From Methanoplanus endosymbiosus (GTDB lineage Archaea > Halobacteriota > Methanomicrobia > Methanomicrobiales > Methanomicrobiaceae), in assembly GCF_024662215.1 (NCBI RefSeq), contig NZ_CP096115.1, forward strand, positions 930,001 through 994,000: 64,000 nt of DNA, in the 5' to 3' direction. Position numbers and translations under genes: made by a program. Below the pieces are notes generated by a model. It was not told the DNA's origin. It saw only the letters and a program-made list of their open reading frames with translations, and did no database searches. Position 1 is the first letter of the stretch; the number at the start of each line of letters is the position of its first letter. This document shows positions 3,638 through 54,558 of the stretch, one piece after another.

Positions 3638-5184
3638 GAATTATACTCTGCGAAACGCCAGGCACCCGTCGGAATCTGAATCTCAAACCGTGCACCTGAA
3701 CCGGGAATTCCTGTCTCAGAGAGCAGAGAACCCGTAATGTCAAGAATCTCACGGGCGAGAAAAAGACCGAATCCGGTATGTTCACCATAACCACGCCCAA
3801 AGATCTTTTCTTTCTGATCAGAGGGAATACCAGGACCGTTATCTTCAACATAGACAACCATCCCGTCTTTTTCCATGCAGGAGATCGTAACTTCTGATGC
3901 CCTCCCGTGACGGAGAGCATTATCAAAAAAGTTCCGGAAAACATTAATGATCATGGGATCAGCAAGGATCTCAATATTTCCGCAGTTTACACTGACATTT
4001 AGATCAGCAAATTCCGGAGATAACGAAGCCTCACGAATGATCTCCGGGAGATTATTCCAGACAGGAGCCTTCACACCGAGTTCCTGGTAATTACGGGTGA
4101 AGGAGATAATACGTGAGATAGTCTCAGCTGATTTTATGCACCGTTCGAGGTTCTCTCTGTTCTCTTCCGGATCAGAAACAGATTCAGAAGCCATATCAAG
4201 TGAAATTAAGAGCACTGTGATCTGGTTCAGGATATCATGCCGGGTAATGCTGGAGAGGATATTGAGTTTTTTGTTTGCTACCCGCAGCGTCTCCTCATAA
4301 CGGCGGATATCCGAGATGTCACGGACATCGATCGCCCATCCGATTATCATTTCAGACGCATCTTTCAGGCGGGAAGAGTGGACCATGAGGTTCATTTTCC
4401 CACCTCCTTCTGCCGGCAGTGTTACCTCAGACCATACTCCGTTTGAGGCATCATCAGGAGAAGGCAGTTTCCACGGAGTACTCTCCTCACCGGCAATGAT
4501 TAGCGGCATTATCTCCGGGAATAACTTATTGACCGGATTACAGTTACAAATACGGTATGCCTCATAATTTGCCCGGATAACAGTATAGTCAGTATCACAG
4601 ACAAAGACAGCATCACCAATATTCTCAAAGATGGACCGGGTGAAGTTCTCTGCCTGGATAATAATCTCATTTTTTTTCACGAGACTAAGGTCGGTCAGAA
4701 TAACAGAATAGCTGCGAACACCGGCGGTTTCTTCCAGCAATCCAACATCCAGATGAACCGGTGTCCGGTTCCCGTCGGGGCGGACAAAAATTATCTCTTT
4801 TGAGAGTCGCTCCTTTGAAGAGAGAGCAAGAATCGCCCCGCAGGTACCCACATCAGCAGGTGTAAGAAAATCACAGGCAGGTGTTCCAATTACTGAACGG
4901 ATATCACGACCAATAATGTCAGAAAATTTCCGGTTGCAGTAGAGCACTGTCAGATCACTGTCAAGGATAACGGCACCCTGATCCATATTCTCAACAAAAT
5001 GCCGGTACGGTGTCTCTGCACTTTCCAGAGTGAAAATCTGACCGCCCATATCAGGCGTGCCGACAATGGCATCCACCTCACCGGCACGGATCGCCCGGAG
5101 CACCTCATCCAGTTCTTCGAGACGTTCTTTTAGGCGTTCATTCTCAGCGAGAATCTCAGCAGAGGAACATTCGGATTCTTTCAT
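3634..5184 (-). CDS. PAS-PAS sensor histidine kinase of the kai operon
   Basis: 516 residues, soluble. The N-terminal ~60 residues (AILAENERL...AIRAGEVDAIVG...AETPYRHFVE) are nearly shared with the following gene. Two PAS domains follow (about 65-170 and 175-295). The phosphoacceptor is His316 in TRHDILNQ, the H-box variant common in methanogen kinases. The ATPase domain shows an N-box (NVFRNFFDNALRHG), a G1-type DNGPGIP motif and a GFGLFLAREI glycine box. It should autophosphorylate; no receiver domain is encoded in this operon, so its phosphate target is unknown. It starts 19 nt after kaiB and overlaps the next gene by 4 nt, implying translational coupling. Confidence 0.88.
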   Translation of the reverse strand: MKESECSSAEILAENERLKERLEELDEVLRAIRAGEVDAIVGTPDMGGQIFTLESAETPYRHFVENMDQGAVILDSDLTVLYCNRKFSDIIGRDIRSVIGTPACDFLTPADVGTCGAILALSSKERLSKEIIFVRPDGNRTPVHLDVGLLEETAGVRSYSVILTDLSLVKKNEIIIQAENFTRSIFENIGDAVFVCDTDYTVIRANYEAYRICNCNPVNKLFPEIMPLIIAGEESTPWKLPSPDDASNGVWSEVTLPAEGGGKMNLMVHSSRLKDASEMIIGWAIDVRDISDIRRYEETLRVANKKLNILSSITRHDILNQITVLLISLDMASESVSDPEENRENLERCIKSAETISRIISFTRNYQELGVKAPVWNNLPEIIREASLSPEFADLNVSVNCGNIEILADPMIINVFRNFFDNALRHGRASEVTISCMEKDGMVVYVEDNGPGIPSDQKEKIFGRGYGEHTGFGLFLAREILDITGSLLSETGIPGSGARFEIQIPTGAWRFAEYNS

Positions 5185-8100: not shown

Positions 8101-9555
8101 ATGTTTGAACAGACCTTCAGAAATATTGACGATATCCTGTGGAAGGACTCCGGGGCTGACAGTGAACTTGACTATATCGGGCAGACATCATGGGTTCTTT
8201 TTCTCCGGTATCTTGACGAGCTTGAACGGACAAAGGCAGATGAGGCTGCATTAAGAGGGCAGGAATACGGGTTTATACTTGATGAGGAATTCCGGTGGTC
8301 TAAGTGGGCAATGCCAAAAGATGCTGACGGCAGACCTGATCATCACAGGGCTATGACAGGGCCGGATCTCGTCTCATTTGTGGATAATAAGCTCTTTGCC
8401 TACCTGGCAGAGTTCAAGCAGAAGGCTGACAGCCCCAGGACTATTGAGTATAAGATCGGCGAAATATTCTCTGAAATTCAGAATAAGATAAAGAGCGGCT
8501 ACAACCTGCGTGAGATTATTGACTATGCCGATGAGCTGGAATTCCGGTCATCAAAAGAGAAACACGAGTTAAGCAGTCTTTACGAGACCAGAATTAAGAA
8601 TATGGGAAATGCCGGACGAAACGGCGGACAGTACTACACCCCAAGACCTTTAATCCGTGCAATGATTCAGGTTATTGATCCGCAGATCGGCGAGACGATC
8701 TATGATGGTGCTGCCGGTTCATGCGGTTTTCTCTGTGAGTCCTATGATTATCTCTGCCGGAAGATGGATAAGACCACGGATAACCTGAGAGTTCTTCAGG
8801 AGGAGACTTTTTACGGCAAGGAGAAGAAGAACCTTGCGTATGTCATCGGGACGATGAATATGATCCTTCACGGGATCGAAGCTCCGAATCTTGTACATAT
8901 TAATACTCTTACGGAGGATATCCGGCACATTCAGGAGAAGGACCGCTATAATGTAATCCTTACAAATCCTCCTTTTGGCGGAAAGGAGAGAAAGGAGATA
9001 CAGCAGAATTTTGATATAAAGACCGGAGAGACTGCATTTTTATTCCTTCAGCATTTCATTAAGTTTTTAAAGACCGGAGGAAGGGCTGCGGTTGTTATTA
9101 AGAATACATTTCTGAGCAATACTGACAATGCCTCTGTGAGTCTTAGAAAACATCTCCTTAACTCCTGCAATCTACATACAGTTCTTGATATGCCCTCCGG
9201 AACTTTTCAGGGTGCGGGGGTTAAGACTGTTATTCTCTTCTTTGAGAAGGGTGAGCCGACTAAGAAGATCTGGTATTATCAGTTTGATCCAGGGCGGAAT
9301 ATGGGCAAGACCAATCCGCTTAATGATGACGACTTAAAGGAGTTTGTTAATCTTCAGCCTGAGATGCCGGAGACGGAGCATTCATGGAACTTTAATGTTG
9401 CAGAGATTAATGAGGAGACCTTTGACCTGAGTGTCAAAAACCCGAACACTCCAAAAGAAGAGCCTTTAAGAAGCCCGGAGGAGATTCTGGATGAGATGGA
9501 GAGGCTTGATGCTGAGACGGCTGAGGTGTTAAGGTCAGTTCGGGATCTGCTATGA
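8101..9555 (+). CDS. hsdM: Type I restriction-modification DNA methyltransferase subunit HsdM
   Basis: 484 residues, full length. An N-terminal HsdM helical domain (about 1-150) precedes an N6-adenine methyltransferase domain. Motif I is the variant DGAAGSCGFL (from Asp202) instead of the usual DPAxGSGGFL. Motif IV is NPPFGG (from Asn289). YTPRPLIRAM is the typical sequence just before motif I. The family needs HsdS for target recognition, and none is encoded here; HsdR is also missing. The next gene starts 11 nt downstream and is a DUF1016 nuclease often found inside hsd loci. It could be active only with an HsdS supplied from elsewhere, or be a relic. Confidence 0.93.
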   Translation: MFEQTFRNIDDILWKDSGADSELDYIGQTSWVLFLRYLDELERTKADEAALRGQEYGFILDEEFRWSKWAMPKDADGRPDHHRAMTGPDLVSFVDNKLFAYLAEFKQKADSPRTIEYKIGEIFSEIQNKIKSGYNLREIIDYADELEFRSSKEKHELSSLYETRIKNMGNAGRNGGQYYTPRPLIRAMIQVIDPQIGETIYDGAAGSCGFLCESYDYLCRKMDKTTDNLRVLQEETFYGKEKKNLAYVIGTMNMILHGIEAPNLVHINTLTEDIRHIQEKDRYNVILTNPPFGGKERKEIQQNFDIKTGETAFLFLQHFIKFLKTGGRAAVVIKNTFLSNTDNASVSLRKHLLNSCNLHTVLDMPSGTFQGAGVKTVILFFEKGEPTKKIWYYQFDPGRNMGKTNPLNDDDLKEFVNLQPEMPETEHSWNFNVAEINEETFDLSVKNPNTPKEEPLRSPEEILDEMERLDAETAEVLRSVRDLL

Positions 9556-9565
9556 GAGGGATTTT

Positions 9566-10675
9566 ATGATGCCTGATATTATCCGGTCTGATGAGGAGTA
9601 TAAGTCCTGGATTGCGGAGATCAAGTCGAGACTCCGGCAGGCACAGCTTAAGGCTGCTGTGTCGGTTAACACGGCCCTTCTTGAGTTTTACTGGCAGCTT
9701 GGTGCGGAGATTGTTGAGAAACAGAAGTCTGCCGCATGGGGGAGCGGTTTTCTAAAAAGGCTCAGCCATGATCTGATGGCTGAGTTTCCGGAGATGAAGG
9801 GATTTTCCGAGACTAATCTTCGTTTTATTCGCCGTTGGTACCTGTTTTACAATGAGGATCCATCTAATTCGGTCACAGGCTGTGACCGAATTGAACACGG
9901 GGACTTACCCGATACTTCAGGAGACAAAAATGGTGCACAGGCTGTGCACCTTTTGACAGAGATCCCATGGGGACACAACCGGGTGATAATTTCAAAGTGC
10001 AGTACCGTTGATGAAGCCCTATTCTATGTCAGGAAAACTATTGAGAACAACTGGAGCAGGAATGTATTAACTCATCAGATCGAAAGCCGCCTCTACGAAC
10101 GGGACGGAAGAGCGATCACTAATTTCTCTTCAGCTCTTCCTGCACCGCAGTCTGATCTGGCACAGCAGATTCTAAAAGATCCATACAAATTTGATTTTCT
10201 CTCCCTTTCTCCGGAATACACAGAAAGAGAACTGGAAAAAGGGCTTATTGAGCATATAACTCAGTTTCTGCTTGAACTGGGTTCAGGTTTTGCATATGTG
10301 GGAAAACAGAAGATGCTCAAAGTTGGAGAACGTGAATTTTTTATTGACCTCTTATTTTACCACACCCGGTTGCACTGCTATGTGGTAATTGAGCTTAAAA
10401 CCGGAGATTTTGAACCGGAATATGCAGGCAAGCTTAATTTCTACTTAAAGGCAGTGGATGCACAGTTAAAGACAGAAAAGGATGAACCAACGGTTGGCAT
10501 TCTTCTCTGCAAGAGCCACGATGCTCTGGTTGTTGAGTACGCCTTAAGCGATATAAAAAAGCCAATCGGAGTATCCGAGTATGATCTTGTGACCTCACTT
10601 CCTGAAGATTTAAAGGACAGTTTCCCGACAGTCGAACAGCTTGAGGAAGAATTAAGGAGGCTTGACGAACAGTGA
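9566..10675 (+). CDS. DUF1016 (YhcG-type) PD-(D/E)XK nuclease family protein
   Basis: 369 residues. The N-terminal DUF1016 domain (LLEFYWQLGAEIVEKQ..WGSGFLKRLSHDL, then FSETNLRFIRRWYLFY) leads to PWGHNRVIISK and a C-terminal PD-(D/E)XK core: FFIDLLFYH supplies the Asp and VVIELKTGDFEPEY the ExK. Residues about 98-135 form a low-conservation linker that encodes two DNA palindromes. The family accompanies type I restriction genes and other defence loci; its biochemical role is not settled. GAGAGGG at 9555-9561 serves the ATG-ATG start. The end overlaps the following RhuM fragment by 4 nt. Confidence 0.88.
   Translation: MMPDIIRSDEEYKSWIAEIKSRLRQAQLKAAVSVNTALLEFYWQLGAEIVEKQKSAAWGSGFLKRLSHDLMAEFPEMKGFSETNLRFIRRWYLFYNEDPSNSVTGCDRIEHGDLPDTSGDKNGAQAVHLLTEIPWGHNRVIISKCSTVDEALFYVRKTIENNWSRNVLTHQIESRLYERDGRAITNFSSALPAPQSDLAQQILKDPYKFDFLSLSPEYTERELEKGLIEHITQFLLELGSGFAYVGKQKMLKVGEREFFIDLLFYHTRLHCYVVIELKTGDFEPEYAGKLNFYLKAVDAQLKTEKDEPTVGILLCKSHDALVVEYALSDIKKPIGVSEYDLVTSLPEDLKDSFPTVEQLEEELRRLDEQ
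9866..9892. repeat. 27-nt perfect palindrome inside the DUF1016 gene
   Basis: Arms AATTCGGTCACAG and CTGTGACCGAATT (13 nt each) surround a single central G. It lies in the linker between the two conserved parts of the protein and is translated in frame. The core CACAGGCTGTG recurs in the palindrome 40 nt downstream. Confidence 0.85.
9928..9954. repeat. Second palindrome inside the DUF1016 gene
   Basis: Arms GGTGCACAG and CTGTGCACC surround a single G (9932-9950) and extend with AAA/TTT beyond one mismatch. It shares the CACAG-G-CTGTG core with the palindrome at 9866-9892 but has different flanks. Confidence 0.8.
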
Positions 10676-10887
10676 CAGAAATTAAAGCCGGCCGGTTAAC
10701 ACAGCACCGGATGACAGAACTTTTCAACACAACAGAGCAGAGCATCAGCCTGCATATAAATAATATCTATTCAGAAGGCAAATCCCACAGGGCAACTGTA
10801 AAGAAATACCTGACAGTTCAGAATATCTTAAAAGGAGAGAGCCATATCAGAAAAATATCAGGAGGTGTACCTGAATATGACAGATAA
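10672..10887 (+). pseudogene. RhuM-family N-terminal fragment 1
   Basis: 71 residues starting at a GTG that overlaps the DUF1016 stop (GTGA). TQHRMTELFNTTEQSISLHI, followed by NNIYSEG and KKYLTVQ, matches the N-terminal DNA-binding-like part of RhuM/virulence-protein family members common in hsd loci. The reading frame then runs out after about 70 residues, far short of a complete protein of roughly 330, so this is a remnant. The following fragment repeats the same domain, so two RhuM genes or a duplication decayed here. Confidence 0.7.
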
Positions 10888-11206
10888 AAAACTCATCAGA
10901 AACAGCACTGCTGAATTTTTGATCTTTACAGCAGAGGGCGGTGAAGAGTCGATTGAGGTCAGGTATGAAGATGAGACCATATGGCTGAGCCAGAAGATGA
11001 TGGCAGTGCTGTTTGATGTAAATGTCAGGACAATAAACGAGCACCTGAAGAATATCTACGCAAGCGGGGAGTTGTCACATAAGGCAACTATCCGGAATTT
11101 CCGGATAGTTCAGACAGAAGGAAACCATGAAGTCACCAGAGAAATTGACCATTACAGTCTCGATGCTATAATTCCGGGATTTACCCGGACCTGTGCCAGC
11201 GGATAG
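10877..11206 (+). pseudogene. RhuM-family N-terminal fragment 2
   Basis: The ATG at 10877 has GGAGGTG at 10861-10867, so it is preferred to the in-frame GTG at 10865. The product opens with STAEFLIFTAEGG.ESIEVRYEDETIWLSQKMMAVLFDV, the classic RhuM start, and runs to REIDHYSLDAII. It then departs from the family's LDAIISVGYRV consensus and stops 10 residues later, so the gene has lost its C-terminal two-thirds. Translation signals remain intact, and a short DNA-binding peptide could still be made. Confidence 0.75.
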
Positions 11207-11288
11207 TTATTAACTAATATTTCCTGAGAGAAAACCAAAGATCAGAGACACTTAATAAGGATCATATTCCGGATTATCATCTGTCAGT

Positions 11289-11573
11289 TCAGACCGGCCC
11301 GGACGGGTGTGATTCATCTGCCGGCACTGCAACCAGCATCTCGATATCCATTCTGTCTGCCCTTCTTAGAACCATATTCATTGCAGCCTTTTCGTCCAAA
11401 GCTTCAAACATGACAACTGTATCATACCGTCCAAGCGTCCAGTAGATACCAAGGTACTTAATCTGCCCCTCTGTATCGGTCTCTATATCTTTCATATTCT
11501 GCTCAACAACCTCTTTGCTGAGCGATTTTTTAAATTTTGCAAGTGCAATAAACATCATAGCAATAGCCCTCAT
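11289..11573 (-). CDS. GYD-domain protein
   Basis: 94 residues, or about 88 if translation begins at the paired methionines before FIALAKFKK, which have GAGG upstream. IKYLGIYWTLGRYDTVVMFEA is the GYD-family signature, a small ferredoxin-fold domain of unknown function. An AT-rich TATATAATT element near 11605-11615 fits a promoter on this strand with a very short leader. The gene is monocistronic. Confidence 0.8.
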   Translation of the reverse strand: MRAIAMMFIALAKFKKSLSKEVVEQNMKDIETDTEGQIKYLGIYWTLGRYDTVVMFEALDEKAAMNMVLRRADRMDIEMLVAVPADESHPSGPV

Positions 11574-11964
11574 CCTTCCGGAGGATAAGTTAACATTAGA
11601 GAAGATTATATATAATTATTAGCCGGAAACTGCACTTAAAAGAGAGGCCGGTTTTCCCGGATTCATCATTTACCGTTGCAGCCACGCCACAGAAAAATGC
11701 AACGGTAGCGAAGTTACTGTGCCATTTTCAGACATAACATTGTGGCACGGTAGAATGTAAATTACATAAACCCAAACAAGCCATAATCTGAGAATGATTC
11801 CTGGAAAAACAACCAAATTTCAGCCACAACGCAAAGGTAAAAATTCTCTCGCACCACTTCCGGGTGCAACAAAATGGTGCGACAGAGAATTAATAACACA
11901 GAATAAGCCCCATACCCCATATTATTTGCATAATAAACCCTTAATCACCAGTAAAAACACGAGT
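11574..11964. other. Intergenic region holding repeat copy A and a small hairpin
   Basis: 391 nt with the GYD promoter at its left, the 60-nt structured repeat at 11669-11728, a GTGCC/GGCAC pairing just after it, and a GCACCA...TGGTGC pairing near 11850-11880. A 79-codon ORF in this stretch has no family features and is not called. Confidence 0.5.
11669..11728. repeat. 60-nt structured direct repeat, copy A
   Basis: Matches 13260-13319 at 54 of 60 positions, and all six differences are transitions. TACCGTTGCA and TGCAACGGTA form a perfect 10-bp stem around a 17-nt loop. In the other copy the same stem is kept through two G-U type changes. The pair flanks the AlbA_2 gene. Confidence 0.85.
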
Positions 11965-13257
11965 TCACTTCCTAATCACATAATGCGTCTGTGCACCCGA
12001 ACCCTTCTTCTCGATAAGGCCAAGATCCCTTAACTTTTTAATTCTTCTTAAAACTGTATTTTTGGAAATCCCAAGCCGTACTGCCAGATCATTGCTCTGT
12101 AGAGGGACATTGAGATGCTTCAGTATCCGGTTATCAGTCTCATCAATAGCTGAAGATACGTCTTTTCTGAAGATCACTGTAAATGCGGCAGGAGTTGCCC
12201 GGAATTCGACCGAACAGAGCGGATGCTTATCCACCTCAGCCTCAATCATCTTAATTCCAAAACCATACCGCTCAATATAGCCGGTATCATATAACAGATT
12301 TGAAACTGAAGGATTCCTGGGGATGTGCTCCGGATCTTTAATATTCACACCCGGCATAAGCCCACCCGGATTTTTTATCTCAAACCTGTCAGGATAGCTC
12401 AGTATCCGGACATCAGCACTGATGGTATAATTCCGGTGTGCAACTGCATTGATTAATGCCTCACGAATTGCCCTTGGAGGATATTCTTCAATTTTAACCC
12501 TTCTTGTACCTATAACTACATCAGTTTTTTTCAGGTCATGAACCAGATCTGAATATGCTTCCTCAATAACCTTCCAGACCGGCCCTTCATATTCTTCACT
12601 CCAGACTGGGCCGTCCTCACCCATACCTGTTCTTCTTATCCTGGCACAGGAGATATTTTCTGTTGCTTCAGTGAAAAAGAGAATGCCTGCATTTGTCAGC
12701 CTTCCGTTTTTTATTGCCCCGTCACTTCTCAGATACCTTGACCTGTTGTCATCAGAAATTGTTTTTCCTCTCGTCTCCTTTACCCTTTCAAAGAACCATT
12801 CAATATATTCAGGCAGGGCATCTTCCTCTTCAAGCATGGGAATTTCATCCCAATTGATAGTTCCCATTTCTGAAGAGAGCATAATTATCTCCTGAAGTGA
12901 AAGCGGTCTTACTCCTGTACCTGTTCTGATATATACAACACCACCAAGAGAAGAGAGTGTTTTGCTTTTCTCAATACTTATTATGAGAAGATCTTTGTCA
13001 TCGATTGACATTTTCTGCGTCTTTATAACCGGAGGCGGAATTATTGACTGAATTGAACTTGTTAATTTCTCAATAGCCCCCTTTGCATCAGTTCCTGTTA
13101 TCTTCCCGTCATCTGTCACCCCGACAATTATTATTCCACCCTCTGAATTTGCAAAGGCAGCAACTTCATGATGAATATTTTTACCTGCTGTCTCTTTAAA
13201 TTCAAGAGTTTCAGATTCTCCTGACTTAATCAGATAAATCAGTTCTTCCAGATCCAT
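11965..13257 (-). CDS. AlbA_2 (Schlafen-type) domain ATP-binding transcriptional regulator
   Basis: 430 residues. An N-terminal AlbA_2 domain (ETLEFKETAGK, then FANSEGGIIIVGVTDDG; residues 10-120) is followed by a middle region with the HATPase_c_4-like stretch YPPRAIREALINAVAHRNY and FEIKNPGGLMPG. It ends in a winged helix (LQSNDLAVRLGISKNTVLRRIKKL, about 375-430). Proteins of this architecture are widespread, mostly uncharacterised, and are often annotated as transcriptional regulators. Its start codon lies 3 nt from repeat copy B, so the repeat occupies the promoter/5' leader, while copy A lies about 240 nt past the stop. Confidence 0.88.
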   Translation of the reverse strand: MDLEELIYLIKSGESETLEFKETAGKNIHHEVAAFANSEGGIIIVGVTDDGKITGTDAKGAIEKLTSSIQSIIPPPVIKTQKMSIDDKDLLIISIEKSKTLSSLGGVVYIRTGTGVRPLSLQEIIMLSSEMGTINWDEIPMLEEEDALPEYIEWFFERVKETRGKTISDDNRSRYLRSDGAIKNGRLTNAGILFFTEATENISCARIRRTGMGEDGPVWSEEYEGPVWKVIEEAYSDLVHDLKKTDVVIGTRRVKIEEYPPRAIREALINAVAHRNYTISADVRILSYPDRFEIKNPGGLMPGVNIKDPEHIPRNPSVSNLLYDTGYIERYGFGIKMIEAEVDKHPLCSVEFRATPAAFTVIFRKDVSSAIDETDNRILKHLNVPLQSNDLAVRLGISKNTVLRRIKKLRDLGLIEKKGSGAQTHYVIRK

Positions 13258-13888
13258 TGTTTACTGTTGCAACCGCACCACGGAAAAATGTAACGGTAGC
13301 GAAGTTACTGTGCCATTTTAGGGTGCAATGGCATGAGACGATAAACACTGAATACCGCAGACCACAACCGGACAAAAATCAGAGGTAATTCCGGAAAATA
13401 CGGCAGATTTCAGGCATTACTTATGGATTAAAAAAATTAGTACCTATAGGATCAGAGCTGACAATGCAGACACAGTATAACAGAGATATAACAGGATACC
13501 TGTTCACTATCGCTGTAAGAAACGGCACAGCCGGATTTTACAGTAATGTGTAAGTAGGAAAATGATTCTTCCGGCTTAAACCAACCGGAAAGGGAACCAA
13601 TCATTATGAATGATCAGTCATCACCGGAACTTCATACAGTTCCGGGGAACAGTTACAAATAAATACCCAAAAAATCAATTGTCAATTATCCGGCACTGAT
13701 AAATGTGAGCTTCTGAACATATCTGTAAATGGTCATGAGAAACTGATCGGTCTTTAACAGCTATTCCTCATTTAATAATCCGGCAGGGGATTAGCCTTGT
13801 ATGGAGAAGATCTGACTGCCAGTGGAACCACAAAAACACCCATCTGATGTAACGGCTGCCATTGGTTCTTAACAGGAGAACAATAATC
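13258..13888. other. Divergent intergenic region with repeat copy B
   Basis: About 630 nt between the AlbA_2 gene and the substrate-binding-protein operon. It holds repeat copy B at its left edge, a GCCATT/AATGGC pairing directly after it, and a CCGGAAC...GTTCCGG hairpin at 13624-13645. Only an 18-codon ORF (from about 13606) is seen there, and it is not called. Confidence 0.5.
13260..13319. repeat. 60-nt structured direct repeat, copy B
   Basis: Copy of 11669-11728 with six transitions. The stem TACTGTTGCA/TGTAACGGTA still closes, using two wobble pairs where copy A has Watson-Crick pairs. It lies directly upstream of the AlbA_2 start codon on the opposite strand. Confidence 0.85.
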
Positions 13889-14920
13889 ATGGATGAAACA
13901 AAAAAGCCCGCTGACAGAACTTCCCTGAAGCCTGCTGTCATTGTGATTGCTGCCGTCATCATACTTGTAGTACCCGTCATTTATTTCATGGCACAGACTC
14001 TGATGCCACCAGAACATTCAGAACCCCTCATCATAGCAACCGGCCCTCCTTATCTCTCTGCTCTGACCCTTATTGCCGATGAAAACGGATATTTTGAAAA
14101 ATACGGGCTGAATGTAACCCTAATCGAGACACCAACAGGCAATGATGCAGTGAGAAAACTCCTGGCAGGAACTGCGGACCTTGCATATGCAGCAGAGTAT
14201 GTCGGAGTTAAAAACAGTTTTGACGCACCTGACCTCAGAATTATTGCGAGCACTATGAAAGCAGACATCGTCTCAGTTATTGTCCGCAGTGACCGGGATA
14301 TATCTGTGCCGTCAGACCTGAAAGGAAAGACCATCGCTCTGTATAAAGGAACAATCGCGGACTATTACTTTGGAAAATTTCTCGCCGCAAATGGAATAGA
14401 TCCCACAGAGGTTAACATTGTTTATCTTACACCGGAAGAAGTCGCAGAAAGTATCATCAGTGGCGATGCCGATGCCGCTGTTATCTGGCAGCCGTTTGTA
14501 AGTCAGATTGAGCGGCAGCTTGCCGGAGACAGTATAACCTGGTCTGTACAGGGCGGGCAGCGTTACTATCGGCTGACTTTTGTAATGGAAGAGACTATCC
14601 ATGACCGTCCCGGTGTTTTACGTGATTACCTCCGTGCCATTGATGATGCAGAGACATTCCTTCATGCACATGAACCGGAGGCAAGGGAGATCGTCGGGCA
14701 GCGTGCAAATAAAACTTATGAAGAACTGGGCACAATCTGGGGAAATAACTGGTTTGTACTCTCACTTGATCAGGGACTTATCCCCACAATGGAAGATGAA
14801 GCACGATGGATGGCAGAGCAGAATATGACCGGCGGAAAAACCCCTCCATCGTATCTGGATATGATATACCAGGATGCAATGCTGGAGGTTAAGCCATCTG
14901 CTGTCACGGTGATCGGGTGA
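13889..14920 (+). CDS. Membrane-tethered NMT1/SsuA-type substrate-binding protein
   Basis: 343 residues. The ATG at 13889 is preferred to the TTG at 13862 because AGGAGA lies at 13875-13880. A single N-terminal membrane segment (PAVIVIAAVIILVVPVIYFM, residues 16-36) is not followed by a lipobox, so the protein is anchored with its binding domain outside. The mature part, with ENGYFEKYGLNVTLIETPTG, a GTADLAY segment and DLKGKTIALYKG, is a periplasmic-binding-protein-like II fold of the taurine/nitrate/thiamine-precursor group. No ABC permease or ATPase follows. The next gene, 18 nt away, is a transmembrane kinase, so the protein probably senses a ligand rather than importing it. The ligand is unknown. 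Confidence 0.85.
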   Translation: MDETKKPADRTSLKPAVIVIAAVIILVVPVIYFMAQTLMPPEHSEPLIIATGPPYLSALTLIADENGYFEKYGLNVTLIETPTGNDAVRKLLAGTADLAYAAEYVGVKNSFDAPDLRIIASTMKADIVSVIVRSDRDISVPSDLKGKTIALYKGTIADYYFGKFLAANGIDPTEVNIVYLTPEEVAESIISGDADAAVIWQPFVSQIERQLAGDSITWSVQGGQRYYRLTFVMEETIHDRPGVLRDYLRAIDDAETFLHAHEPEAREIVGQRANKTYEELGTIWGNNWFVLSLDQGLIPTMEDEARWMAEQNMTGGKTPPSYLDMIYQDAMLEVKPSAVTVIG

Positions 14921-14938
14921 TCTGCCCTGGGGTTTTTC

Positions 14939-16519
14939 ATGAATATTAAAGACCGTATCCGGCTCAGTGTCATAATATCCCTGATAATTGTCCTTGCTAT
15001 ATCGGGGTCCATTATTTATACCACTATGGAGATGAAGAATCTGCAATATCAGGAGAATCTTGCTACTGAAGTGGTACGTGGAGGATATGAACTATCTCAC
15101 CTTTCAAATGAATACAATCTCTTTGAAAAAACCCGTACTTATATCCAGTGGGATGAGAGTTATGCTTCTCTTCAGCCTGTTCTGAGCGGGCTGAAGCCAA
15201 CGGATGCACAGGAAGAGCAGAGCATCTTAATGATCCTGGAGAGTAACGAAGAAATCGGCCTGATCTTGGATGAGATCCGGCAGGAACAGGAATCTGATGC
15301 CGGAGATATATTGTTACCTGCTGCTGATTCAATGGCTCTCTGGAACCGGAATCAGGCGCTTGCCCAGGTAATGATCTTTGAGGGACTGCAACTCCGCCAG
15401 TCATATAATGATGACCTGAATGAAATCCAGTTCTGGAATAATATTTTCATCATTATATTTATCCTGGCAATGCTTGCCATAATCAGCGTCAACTACCTGC
15501 TTCTCAGCCGCCGGTTTGTACGGTCGATACAGGAGATCAATGAGGGAACCGGGGCCTTCACTCAGGGCAACTTTGACTACCGGATACCGGTAACCACGAG
15601 TGACGAGATCGGAGGTATTGCCTGCGGCCTCAATACAATGGCAGAGAAAATTAAGAGCGTGACAGCTTCCCGTGACGAGCTGAATACGGAGATTGTCGAA
15701 CGCAGACTCGTTGAAAAGCAGCTCAGGGAGGCTCATCGTGATCTGGAGCAGAAGGTTGCTGAGAGGACCAGTGAACTCTCAGATGCCAACCTTCATCTTC
15801 AGGAGCTTGACCAGCTCAAATCCATGTTTATCGCAGCGATGAGTCATGAACTCCGCACACCCCTCAACTCAATTATTGGTTTTACCGGGATTTTGCTGCA
15901 GGAACTTCCCGGAAATCTCAATGATGAACAGAAAAAGCAGTTATCAATGGTAAAAACAAGTGCTCACCATCTGCTCAGCCTGATCAATGATGTGATTGAT
16001 ATCAGTAAAATAGGTGCAGGGAAAATAGATTATGCCCACCAGACTTTTGATCTTGCTCCGGAGATCCGCGAAGTGGCAGCAGAGCTTGCCGGTAGTGCAG
16101 AAGAACAGTCCCTTTCCCTGACCATTGACTCACCGGAGCATCTGGAAATCGTAAGTGACCGCCGTCGTGTCAGGCAGATCATCGCAAATCTGGTCAGCAA
16201 TGCAATAAAATTCACAGATGAAGGATCGGTGCAGATAACTCTCAGTCAGGAGGAGGAAAACGCCAGGATAACTGTTCATGATACAGGTATAGGTATCAGA
16301 GAGGAGGAGATACCACGGCTTTTTAAGGCATTCTCCCGTATCACGACTGAGGGAAGATTAACGGAAGGGACCGGACTGGGACTCTACCTCTCTCAGGAAA
16401 TAGCGCAGGCTCTTGGCGGTAAAATCAGCGTAACCAGTGATTATGGGGCAGGCAGTATCTTTGTTTTGGTACTGCCCCTCAGACAAAAAGAAAAAATTAC
16501 TGAAAAGGAGGAGGGATGA
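14939..16519 (+). CDS. Transmembrane HAMP sensor histidine kinase
   Basis: 526 residues. One membrane segment at residues 9-30 and another near 166-188 bracket an extracytoplasmic sensor of about 135 residues. HAMP (about 189-240) and a coiled coil (RDLEQKVAERTSELSDANLH) follow. The HisKA H-box is SHELRTPLNSI with His303. The ATPase domain shows VSNAIKF, DTGIGI and GTGLGLYLSQEI. This bacterial-type H-box differs from the RHDI type of the kai-operon kinase. Its partner receiver begins 3 nt after its stop. The upstream tethered binding protein is the likely ligand-loading partner of the extracytoplasmic sensor. Confidence 0.92.
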   Translation: MNIKDRIRLSVIISLIIVLAISGSIIYTTMEMKNLQYQENLATEVVRGGYELSHLSNEYNLFEKTRTYIQWDESYASLQPVLSGLKPTDAQEEQSILMILESNEEIGLILDEIRQEQESDAGDILLPAADSMALWNRNQALAQVMIFEGLQLRQSYNDDLNEIQFWNNIFIIIFILAMLAIISVNYLLLSRRFVRSIQEINEGTGAFTQGNFDYRIPVTTSDEIGGIACGLNTMAEKIKSVTASRDELNTEIVERRLVEKQLREAHRDLEQKVAERTSELSDANLHLQELDQLKSMFIAAMSHELRTPLNSIIGFTGILLQELPGNLNDEQKKQLSMVKTSAHHLLSLINDVIDISKIGAGKIDYAHQTFDLAPEIREVAAELAGSAEEQSLSLTIDSPEHLEIVSDRRRVRQIIANLVSNAIKFTDEGSVQITLSQEEENARITVHDTGIGIREEEIPRLFKAFSRITTEGRLTEGTGLGLYLSQEIAQALGGKISVTSDYGAGSIFVLVLPLRQKEKITEKEEG

Positions 16520-16522
16520 GGG

Positions 16523-16882
16523 ATGAAGAAAATTCTTGTTGTTGAAGACAACCCGTCGAATCGATATCTGATCACGTATATTCTGGAAAAAAACGGATTT
16601 GAGGTAATTACCGCGGATACAGGGGAAGAAGGGGTACAGAAAGCAACAAAAGAAAGTTTTGACCTTGTTCTGATGGATATCCAGCTCCCCGGCATTGACG
16701 GTTTTGAGGCGACCCGTCAGATCAGGGCATCAGGAACTGACGGGACTCTTCCTATCATTGCTCTGACATCGTACGCAATGGTTGGCGACAGAGAGAAAGC
16801 AATTTCGATGGGATGCACCGGATATATCGAAAAACCGATAAATCCGGATACAATTATCGCAGAGATTCTTGAACATCTATGA
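16523..16882 (+). CDS. Stand-alone response regulator receiver
   Basis: 119 residues, a single CheY-like receiver: acidic pair at VVEDN, phosphoacceptor Asp52 in LMDIQLPGIDG, conserved Thr in ALTSYAM and Lys in YIEKPI. No DNA-binding output domain is attached. The gene starts 3 nt after the kinase stop, with GGAG upstream inside the kinase gene, and overlaps the next gene by 4 nt. Likely a phosphate carrier between the kinase and the receiver-PAS-PAS protein that follows. Confidence 0.92.
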   Translation: MKKILVVEDNPSNRYLITYILEKNGFEVITADTGEEGVQKATKESFDLVLMDIQLPGIDGFEATRQIRASGTDGTLPIIALTSYAMVGDREKAISMGCTGYIEKPINPDTIIAEILEHL

Positions 16883-18438
16883 CTGAGCATACAGAAAAAC
16901 TCACTGATAAAAAAAGCGGGGCAGTACCGGTTCTTATCATTGATGACCTGTATGAGAACCGGTACCTGCTTGAAGTAACTCTGAAATCAAAGGGATATCA
17001 GGTGATAACAGCCCGTAACGGGCAGGAAGCTATGGAATACCTCCACAATCATCCGGTTCGGCTGATCATTTCAGACATCCTGATGCCAAAGATGGATGGG
17101 TTCCAGCTCTGCCGTGAAGTAAAAAAGGATCCTGACCTGAAAAATATTCCTTTTATCTTCTATACAGCATCATATACCAGTGACAAAGACCGCGATTTTG
17201 GGCTTGATCTGGGTGCTGACAGGTACATCATAAAACCAACAGAATCCAGTGAGTTCCTTGCAGAGATCGATGACGTTCTTGCGGAATCAAACACCACCGT
17301 CAATTCTGAACCATTGCTGGGGCCGGAAAATGAGGGTGAATACCTGAAAGAATACAGTGAACGCATCTTTCACAAACTGGAGAAGAAGATCCGGGAGCTT
17401 GAAAAGAAAAATCAGGAATATGAAAAGTCTCAGCAAAACCTTCAGGAGAGCGAAGAGAAGTTCAGAGAACTGTTTGAGAATATCAGCAGTGGTGTGGCAG
17501 TCCTTGAGATGGCCGGAGAAGGAAGCGATTTCATCTTTGTGGATATCAATAAGGCATCAGAACAGCTGGATCATGTCAGAAGAGAGGATGTGGTTGGAAA
17601 CAGTATATTCGGGATCTTTCCCGGCATTGAGGAGTTTGACCTTATTTCTGTGTTACAACGGGTCAATAAAACCGGAACTCCCGAACATATTCCCCTTGCA
17701 GCGTATAAAGATGAACAGACACAGGTATGGCGTGAGAATTATGTGTACCGTCTGCCGTCCGGAGAGCTTGTTGTGGTATATAATGATGTCACCGGGAAGA
17801 AACGGGCAGAGGATGCTCTCATTGAGAGTGAATTCAAATATCACGAAATATTCAATAACATTAACGAAGCGGTTTTCCTGCATGAGGTGATGTCAGATAA
17901 TTCCCGGGGCAATTTCGTGGAGGTCAATGATGTTGCCTGTCATCGTCTGGGGTATTCACGTGAAGAGTTGCTGAATCGTTCTGTTGCAGATATTAATACC
18001 GCAACAGTTAGAAAAGATGACCCGGAACGGGTTCAGGCACTTCATAATAAAAAAGAGCTTTCGTTTGATGCTGAACATGTGCGAAAAGACGGGTCCGTCT
18101 TCCCTGTGCATGTGAATGCCCGGATGATTGAACTTCAGGGCCGTCATTTTATTCTCTCGATCGTACGTGATATGACGGAAGAATATGAGGCACGAAACCG
18201 TGAGGCAATTGCCCTTCGGCAGATTGAGCAGAACCTTACACAGCTTGCGATCTTAAATGATGAGATCAGAAACCCCCTTGCAGTGATCGCCGGTACTGTT
18301 GACCTTTATGATGAGAAGATAGCTACCCCTGTTCTTGAACAGGTTCAGATCATTAATGATATTATAATCCGCCTTGATCGGGGTTGGCTGGAATCAGAGA
18401 AAATACGTGAATATATGAGAAAATACCATGATATTTAG
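16879..18438 (+). CDS. Receiver-PAS-PAS protein ending in a His-less kinase dimerisation domain
   Basis: 519 residues, cytoplasmic. A receiver domain with DD at the acidic pocket and phosphoacceptor Asp66 (SDILMPKMDGF) covers residues 15-130. A coiled linker follows (FHKLEKKIRELEKKNQEYEK), then two PAS domains (about 190-305 and 312-430). The C-terminus, ILNDEIRNPLAVI...RLDRGWLESEKIREYMRKYHDI, matches the end of the PAS protein in the kai operon: Asp461 sits at the H-box His position and no ATPase domain follows. It overlaps the preceding receiver by 4 nt and is the last gene of the cassette. Inferred to be the phosphate-controlled output of the kinase, acting through dimerisation or protein contact. 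Confidence 0.85.
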   Translation: MTEHTEKLTDKKSGAVPVLIIDDLYENRYLLEVTLKSKGYQVITARNGQEAMEYLHNHPVRLIISDILMPKMDGFQLCREVKKDPDLKNIPFIFYTASYTSDKDRDFGLDLGADRYIIKPTESSEFLAEIDDVLAESNTTVNSEPLLGPENEGEYLKEYSERIFHKLEKKIRELEKKNQEYEKSQQNLQESEEKFRELFENISSGVAVLEMAGEGSDFIFVDINKASEQLDHVRREDVVGNSIFGIFPGIEEFDLISVLQRVNKTGTPEHIPLAAYKDEQTQVWRENYVYRLPSGELVVVYNDVTGKKRAEDALIESEFKYHEIFNNINEAVFLHEVMSDNSRGNFVEVNDVACHRLGYSREELLNRSVADINTATVRKDDPERVQALHNKKELSFDAEHVRKDGSVFPVHVNARMIELQGRHFILSIVRDMTEEYEARNREAIALRQIEQNLTQLAILNDEIRNPLAVIAGTVDLYDEKIATPVLEQVQIINDIIIRLDRGWLESEKIREYMRKYHDI

Positions 18439-18836
18439 CGATGAGGTGATAATATAACGGCTATATTGCCGGGTTATGACAGTCAGGCACTAAAAGAGGC
18501 TGCTGCACAAATAATATTTGTTTGACAATTTTATGATTTACAGGCATAATTGGCACAGTTATTGTGGTGATTAACCAAAATTTGCTATCTGATTGTCTCA
18601 CGGTCAGTTAAAAACAGCCATGCATAACTCCGGCATTTATTCTCTCAGCCTGAAGGCAGTCAGTCGAATAAGGGCGCAGGAGTGATCCTGTGCCCTTATT
18701 CGACTCATTTTTAAGCATAAATTACTTTTTAATCTGATCTAAGCTGACATTGTCTGTTTCAGACATCATATCACTGAAAAATACGACTGTGCCAGAGAAT
18801 GGATAGATTTATCACAAAAACATCCAAATAGACCAT
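18439..18836. other. Intergenic region with terminator-like hairpin
   Basis: 398 nt. Apart from the hairpin at 18662-18705 it is non-coding by eye. A short open stretch after 18465 (ILPGYDSQALKEAAAQ in one frame) looks protein-like but has no start and may be gene debris. Confidence 0.5.
18662..18705 (+). terminator. 20-bp hairpin followed by T-run; shares 20 nt with the group II intron 3' end
   Basis: AGTCGAATAAGGGCGCAGGA pairs with TCCTGTGCCCTTATTCGACT across a GTGA loop, with only one G-U pair. CATTTTT follows. As a terminator it would serve the sensory operon ending at 18438. The 3' arm is identical, base for base, to 54539-54559 region sequence at the 3' end of the group II intron. Confidence 0.65.
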
Positions 18837-52452: not shown

Positions 52453-54558
52453 GTGCGACAAGGAAAGCTATAACATAGATTGCGTAAGCTATCCTTTTCG
52501 TTTGGGACATCTCTACCGCAGCATGCATTTCCGGTAACGGAATTGTGTGAAGCCTGCGGAACAACGTGGAGAAAATCAGGAGTCTAACCTGATCAATCTG
52601 CCAGAGAAAGGATGCCATGGAGAAGCAAACGCTGAATCATCGTATGGGTCGTTATTCGCGACAAGCGAAATTTAGACTGCTACGCTTGAACCAAAATGGT
52701 ATGGAATCAGGTTATAACGGTAACTGACACGATATAACGAACGAACAGACGATTCCCGGCCTAAAGATGACTCCTAAAGCATCTATATTATCTATGTTAT
52801 AGAACTTGGAAACCCGTATGCACTCCTCCATGGGGGTATGAAGGCTGTGAAGCCAACAAATGGTGTAGACGGAACAGGATGTCCTAAAAAGCTAATGCCT
52901 GCCGTAACGGGTGGGATAGAAGTATTTGCTTCAACCTGAAAGGGTGCTGACGTAGGACAGGTATTTCTAAGCAATGAAGGAAGGTAAACTTATGAAAGTA
53001 TGTCATTCAATGACGCAGAATTGCGAGAAGCATACTGACAGAGATCTTGCCCAGCAATGGAATTCTATTGACTGGTATAAAGTAAGATCTACTGTTAATC
53101 GGCTACAGATCCGGATTGCAAAGGCAACGAAAGAAGAAAATTGGAACTTGGTGAAACGTCTTTCTTACCTGTTAACTCATTCAAGGTCAGCAAAATTACT
53201 GGCCATACGAATTGTTACACAGAACAGAGGTAAGCGTACACCCGGAATAGATGGAGAAATCTGGAACTCAGCATCGGCAAAGATGCAGGCAGTTCTGAGC
53301 CTCACAGACAAAAATTACTGTGCAAAACCATTACGACGTATTTATATCCTCAAACCAGGTAAGAAAACAAAACGACCTATCTCAATTCCAACCATGTATG
53401 ACCGGGCAATGCAGGCACTTTATGGATTGGCACTTCAGCCAATCGCAGAAACAACAGCAGATCCCCGCTCCTTTGGATTTAGACTCTTCAGATCAGCACA
53501 AGATGCATCAGAATATGCATTCACATGTTTAGGAAGAAAAACGTCATCTACATGGATTCTGGAAGGTGATATCAAGGGATGTTTTGATAATATCAACCAC
53601 GAGTGGCTTAAGGAACACATACCTATGGATAAATCAATCCTCACACAGTTCCTAAAATCGGGATTTGTATTTGATAATTCTCTCTTTTCCACAGACAGAG
53701 GTACTCCACAGGGAGGCCTAATATCTCCAATCCTTGCAAACATGACACTTGATGGAATAGAGCACATTCTTAATGTACGATTCCCCAAGATGAAAATGCA
53801 TTTCATTCGCTATGCAGATGACTTTTTAGTTATCATACCTACAGCGGAGACTGCGAATGAAGCAAAGGAGATAATAAGAGAATTCCTCGCAATAAAAGGC
53901 TTGGAATTATCGGAAGAGAAAACAGTGATTACTAATATCAATGATGGCTTTGACTTTTTAGGGTATAATTTCAGGAAATATAAAGGAAAACTCCTTATCA
54001 AGCCCTCTAAGAAATCAATCAAGTTAATCACAGACAAAATCAGGGACAAAACCAGAAAAGCAAGAGCATGGTCCCAGGATGAATTGATAAAGGTATTAAA
54101 TCCAACAATACGGGGCTGGGTAAACTACCATCGCCATAATTCAGCCAAGGAGACTTTCCAGAAATTAGATAGTTATCTTTGGACAGTAACTTGGAAATGG
54201 GGAAAACGTCGGCACTCTAATAAAGGTCATAAATGGATAGCAAGTAAATATTGGCATGTAGAAGGTAAAAGGAACTGGGTTTTCAAAACAGAAGAGAATA
54301 CTTTAATACAATTCTCGGAAAACTCTATCCGTAGACATTCCTATCCAAAGTTGAATGCAAATCCATATCTTGACAGGAAGTATTTCCTCGAAAGAAAGGA
54401 ACGCATGAGAAGACAAACACCTTGGGTTCAAACCAATTTATTTTATTTCGCTGTGCCGCCCAAAAACGGGTAGTGAAATGCGTGAGCGTACTGCGGTGAA
54501 AGTCGCACGGTGCGTTCTTGGAAGAGGGCGTAGGAGAAATCCTGTGCCCTTATTCGAC
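52453..54558 (+). mobile_element. Group II intron (ribozyme plus reverse transcriptase)
   Basis: The 5' end GTGCGAC fits the GUGYG start. Domain V is the exact 34-nt form at 54484-54517 (GAGC...GGTGAAAGTCGCAC...GTTC). Domain VI (54518-54558) has a bulged A between CCCTT and TTC. The bulge is seven nucleotides from a final GAC, giving the AY end. The ORF at 52974 lies in domain IV. Total about 2.1 kb. The boundaries are by structure, not by an empty site. Confidence 0.8.
52974..54473 (+). CDS. Group II intron reverse transcriptase/maturase
   Basis: 499 residues; a second in-frame ATG at 52992 has GGAAGG upstream and may be the start. RVT_N (about 25-85, ending GKRTPGIDGEIW), RT palm with FRLFRSAQDASEYA, a GTPQGGLISPILANMTLDGIE stretch, and the catalytic RYADDFLVI (Asp281 and Asp282). 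Domain X/maturase is NPTIRGWVNYHRHNSAKETF and WKWGKRRHSNKGHKWI. It ends at AVPPKNG just before domain V, with no HNH endonuclease domain. Such endonuclease-free proteins can still splice and retrohome at replication forks. Confidence 0.92.
   Translation: MKEGKLMKVCHSMTQNCEKHTDRDLAQQWNSIDWYKVRSTVNRLQIRIAKATKEENWNLVKRLSYLLTHSRSAKLLAIRIVTQNRGKRTPGIDGEIWNSASAKMQAVLSLTDKNYCAKPLRRIYILKPGKKTKRPISIPTMYDRAMQALYGLALQPIAETTADPRSFGFRLFRSAQDASEYAFTCLGRKTSSTWILEGDIKGCFDNINHEWLKEHIPMDKSILTQFLKSGFVFDNSLFSTDRGTPQGGLISPILANMTLDGIEHILNVRFPKMKMHFIRYADDFLVIIPTAETANEAKEIIREFLAIKGLELSEEKTVITNINDGFDFLGYNFRKYKGKLLIKPSKKSIKLITDKIRDKTRKARAWSQDELIKVLNPTIRGWVNYHRHNSAKETFQKLDSYLWTVTWKWGKRRHSNKGHKWIASKYWHVEGKRNWVFKTEENTLIQFSENSIRRHSYPKLNANPYLDRKYFLERKERMRRQTPWVQTNLFYFAVPPKNG

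Follow-up and report, generated by a model that had tools for sequence, protein, structure and literature searches.

The 64,000-nucleotide stretch of the Methanoplanus endosymbiosus chromosome analysed here (the window, G000:C1:930001-994000) carries on its minus strand a gene for a protein of 430 amino acids. G000 denotes this genome and G024 its sister genome. Pfam recognised in the protein SLFN_AlbA_2 (5.5e-21; 75.7 bits against a cut-off of 25.3), HATPase_c_4 (6.3e-18; 65 against 26) and the winged helix HTH_24 (2.5e-8; 33.8 against 21.9). With all three domains above the Pfam cut-offs, the protein belongs to the AlbA_2/HATPase_c_4/HTH family, and the solved structure 3lmm is a relative (match over residues 24-342 at 2.5e-9).

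The gene lies beside a defence-like neighbourhood at 8101-11206, which contains a type I methyltransferase, a PDC-S02/YhcG nuclease and a RhuM-like fragment; the methyltransferase and the PDC-S02 protein occupy 8101-10675. PADLOC returned only partial matches (pAgo, Csa3, CARF). A dispersed repeat of ∼120 nt at 13524-13644, with six copies at 77-82% identity in G024, is unrelated to the leader described below. Elsewhere in the window there are pieces of a group II intron (52490-54558) and, 275 nt from each other, two tRNA-Thr (TGT) genes that score equally (1527-1945). The features at the locus are as follows.

11289-11573, minus strand: GYD-domain ORF, 94 aa, the next gene downstream of copy A; in the sister genome, too, its region is found next to A
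11651-11728, minus strand: repeat copy A, an orphan leader that retains some six decayed codons and stands upstream of the GYD ORF
11671-11680, minus strand: A half-site, reverse (TGCAACGGTA)
11698-11707, minus strand: A half-site, forward (TACCGTTGCA)
11715-11724, minus strand: A half-site, reverse (TGGCACAGTA)
11743-11752, minus strand: A upstream half-site, forward (TACCGTGCCA), beyond the 78-nt repeat
11965-13257, minus strand: AlbA_2 (Schlafen)/HATPase_c_4/winged-helix gene, 430 aa, by Pfam domains; proposed maker and target of the operator
13242-13319, minus strand: repeat copy B, the leader and first five codons of the AlbA_2 gene
13262-13271, minus strand: B half-site, reverse (TGCAACAGTA), the closest to the start codon
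13289-13298, minus strand: B half-site, forward (TACCGTTACA)
13306-13315, minus strand: B half-site, reverse (TGGCACAGTA)
13334-13343, minus strand: B degenerate upstream half-site, forward (TATCGTCTCA)

Copies A (11651-11728) and B (13242-13319) are direct repeats of 78 nt each, 85% identical. A search of the whole genome, a single contig of 3.16 Mb, matched them to each other at E = 1.7e-18 and found no third copy. A preliminary description of this DNA had reported 60-nt repeats that differ by six transitions and bracket the AlbA_2 gene exactly. The pair is real and those 60 nt do hold six transitions, but the full repeats are longer and their 12 differences are 12 transitions and no transversions. 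Nor do they bracket the gene exactly: B overlaps its start codon (ATG at 13257), and A lies 236 nt past its stop (11965) and 77 nt upstream of the GYD-domain ORF.

The transition excess is real. A tree of A, B and the sister's A requires 14 changes, all of them transitions (P about 0.001), against 25 of 41 (61%) in the flanking DNA of the two genomes. Since half of the 12 A/B changes fall in the start-codon region, outside both of the stems that had been proposed, RNA structure does not account for this bias.

Protein searches for orthologs covered 28 genomes of the family and 232 of the order, the Methanomicrobiales. Those in the order show 53-84% protein identity and come from five families, and every one with a readable start has a similar leader directly upstream (23 leaders including that of this gene). 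The same leader type precedes the gene in two further genomes (L109 and L110) from another family of the phylum, outside the order. Each leader consists of up to six copies of a 10-nt word, TAYYG[T/A]TNCA, at fixed positions and in the order F F R F R R. Across the 23 leaders the half-sites stand at about −85F, −75F, −57R, −40F, −23R and −13R; some of the upstream sites have been lost in a few leaders, and the sixth, the reverse site at −23, is present in a more distant group. The array has dyad symmetry, its outer, middle and inner pairs sharing a centre at about −44.5, spans about 85 bp and stops 3-4 bp short of the start codon. In the 15 leaders inspected for it, the word is restricted to the last 100 nt before the gene. 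Of B's upstream half-sites, one is degenerate in this genome and its neighbour, at about −76, has been lost. Part of the transition bias between A and B is accounted for by the C/T freedom that the half-site has at its positions 3 and 4.

In L109 and L110 the six half-sites lie at −94, −84, −67, −40, −23 and −13, exactly symmetric about −49. Compared with the order, the dyad is the same and its left half has moved by 10 bp, one helical turn, added at the centre. The word drifts in concert inside one leader, reading TACYGTTNCA here and TACTGTAAAG in L109 and L110. The paired pattern occurs in 12 of the 232 genomes of the order, solely at leaders or relics of this gene, with no control hits. One extra match to a looser inverted pattern, searched genome-wide, was treated as chance, the control count being no lower.

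The loci of most orthologs are unrelated. For most pairs the similarity at DNA level sets in at about −85 to −92, which indicates that the leader travels with the gene. Two genomes have a second leader copy upstream of the one that belongs to the gene: in G208 it is about 180 bp away (L096 4730-4800), and in G016 it is decayed and 1.8 kb away (L045, reverse complement, about 4120-4200). Seven orthologs have a GC-rich tag (CCCGCGGAGCATGCCCGG or close) 10-20 nt past the stop codon (L092 from 6303, L102 from 2616, L098 at 1913 and 3797, reverse complement), also found at solo 3′ ends of the gene in G013. The tag also forms the left end of a 250-nt repeat, of which several genera have 1-9 matches in each genome.

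The preliminary description had taken the changes between A and B as stem-preserving and as a sign of selection for RNA structure. The wobble pairs on which this rested form on the plus strand only; the AlbA_2 gene is encoded on the minus strand, and in this sense strand TACCGTTACA and TGCAACAGTA of B pair with two A·C mismatches. An RNA element to which the AlbA_2 protein binds, whether a hairpin or a pseudoknot of the mRNA leader, would fit the way the CACAG/CTGTG and TACCGTTGCA/TGCAACGGTA arms interleave, in the fashion of an H-type pseudoknot, and the strong fold of the plus strand of A (z −5.4), although such a value is expected of near-perfect palindromes; the plus strand might also be transcribed. 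The sense strand argues otherwise. Read in the direction of the forward word, the −40 site has C at position 4 where the −57 and −13 sites mostly have T, giving an A·C mismatch: this position is unpaired in 26 of 29 leaders between −57R and −40F (paired in 3) and in 21 of 29 between −40F and −13R (paired in 8). Sense-strand folds are unremarkable (z −1.6 for B and −1.0 for A), the repeats have no Rfam match, one word fills all the arms, and the 10-bp phased shift in L109 and L110 preserves the dyad. On the conserved mismatches, the Rfam null, the folds and the helical phasing, a structured RNA leader was rejected as a candidate, and we hold an RNA element to be very improbable.

Repeated half-sites, conserved order and helical spacing are all present, as in a DNA operator, and the shift by one turn that keeps the dyad points to a DNA-bound protein. 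We therefore favour, with a probability of roughly 70%, the reading that the repeats are DNA operator arrays placed before the AlbA_2 gene, that this gene controls itself through its own winged helix, and that A is a relic. Copy B would be the promoter-proximal operator of the gene. The product most likely binds the array cooperatively through its C-terminal winged helix, the presence of which counts for self-binding, and the bound protein may block a core promoter, probably one inside the array or next to it. A convincing archaeal TATA box was not found, so that the choice of repression over activation is a guess. Autoregulation by the AlbA_2 protein, one of the possibilities raised in the preliminary description, thus survives as the best reading, transferred from RNA to DNA.

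Four half-sites and a remnant of the start region survive in copy A; unrelated sequence follows up to the GYD-domain ORF. Some changes are common to A and B and were not seen in the remaining leaders (CCGTGGTGCGG, for one, is shared by B and the A of G024), which makes A and B sister copies; A would be the orphan leader of an adjacent or older gene copy that lost its body, and is probably inert. G024, the sister genome, contains copy A with the GYD region and lacks a close AlbA_2 ortholog. Both of A's own flanks are preserved there (91% identity to 11261-11856); 11857-18793 (6.9 kb) is missing, replaced by about 93 nt. Because the missing block is not the A-B interval, this locus is not a product of A/B recombination, and recombination or excision between the two copies was ruled out on these grounds. 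The suggestion of a deletion-prone repeat pair accordingly found no backing in the one sister genome compared: no A/B recombinant was seen, and the single copy there has both flanks of A.

Comparable leader relics exist in five other genomes (G011:C76, G008:C25, G002:C62, G003:C13 and G018), most of them with deletions in the gene. In the G011 relic 18 codons are fused to the last 18, with TTGAA common to both sides at the junction. The relics were found through the leader pattern, a search that favours those that keep the leader, and the intactness of their leaders is thus weak evidence of function.

We also considered that the leader might mark one end of a mobile gene cassette, or a site of recombination, with A and B as its two ends or as an integrated site and a copy. 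Several observations are in keeping with this: the unrelated loci of the orthologs with homology largely confined to leader and gene, the existence of 5′ leaders and of 3′ ends that stand alone, and the dispersed 250-nt repeat that adjoins the gene in some genera. However, in other genomes no leader copy was seen at the 3′ end of the gene, the extra copies in G016 and G208 being upstream, and the relic junctions in G011 and G008 fall inside the gene, that of G011 at the short shared match. In this window the cassette-end proposal is not supported by the sister locus, which is not an A/B recombinant: G024 keeps A's flanks around a single copy and lacks a block of 6.9 kb. Precise cassette ends with a matching empty site were not found in that genome. 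We consider such a role for the leader improbable.

If the array were a DNA operator for some other regulator, such as a paralogous winged-helix/AlbA_2 protein, orphans like A would be live and other genes, here GYD, would belong to the regulon of that protein. Orphan leaders with good half-sites persist in genomes without a close ortholog (G024, G003 and G018), and those of G018 and G024 could be read by another protein; several AlbA_2 paralogs, at about 30% identity, are available in these genomes; and only one of the eight differences between G000 and G024 in copy A falls inside a half-site. Against this, in the 232 genomes the pattern is confined to the gene itself or to its relics, and it travels with the gene; no comparable array was seen in the leaders located among 12 distant paralogs, a few of which were not properly placed. 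When helix and operator covariation was compared, recognition-helix differences between clades were inseparable from phylogeny. A different reader seems unlikely, and the gene's own product is the preferred binder.

Archaeal winged-helix regulators, for example of the MsvR or Lrp type, have autoregulatory operators. Like the array described here, these are inverted half-sites just upstream of the regulator's own start codon; they differ in that they belong to classical small regulators, whereas here up to six half-sites form a dyad in the fixed order F F R F R R before a Schlafen/AlbA_2 protein. As a kind, an autoregulatory operator is ordinary; a six-half-site dyad before a Schlafen-type protein is new. 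The AlbA_2/HATPase_c_4/HTH proteins, which we take to be the COG2865 type, share with this protein the domain order AlbA_2, HATPase_c_4, winged helix, but no operator for that family was found in the literature searched, whereas this gene has a predicted one.

The case illustrates that wobble-like pairing, when taken from the wrong strand, can look like a conserved RNA structure. A more speculative extension, to which we give little weight, is that gene and operator form a high-turnover, horizontally moving single-gene unit of methanogens in which the 5′ operator (and in some genera the 3′ GC-rich tag) outlives the gene, and that surviving operators such as copy A are captured, placing neighbours under the remaining Schlafen-type regulators. 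The array offers a concrete candidate binding site for the poorly understood Schlafen-domain regulators of archaea, and its motif locates both live genes and relics.
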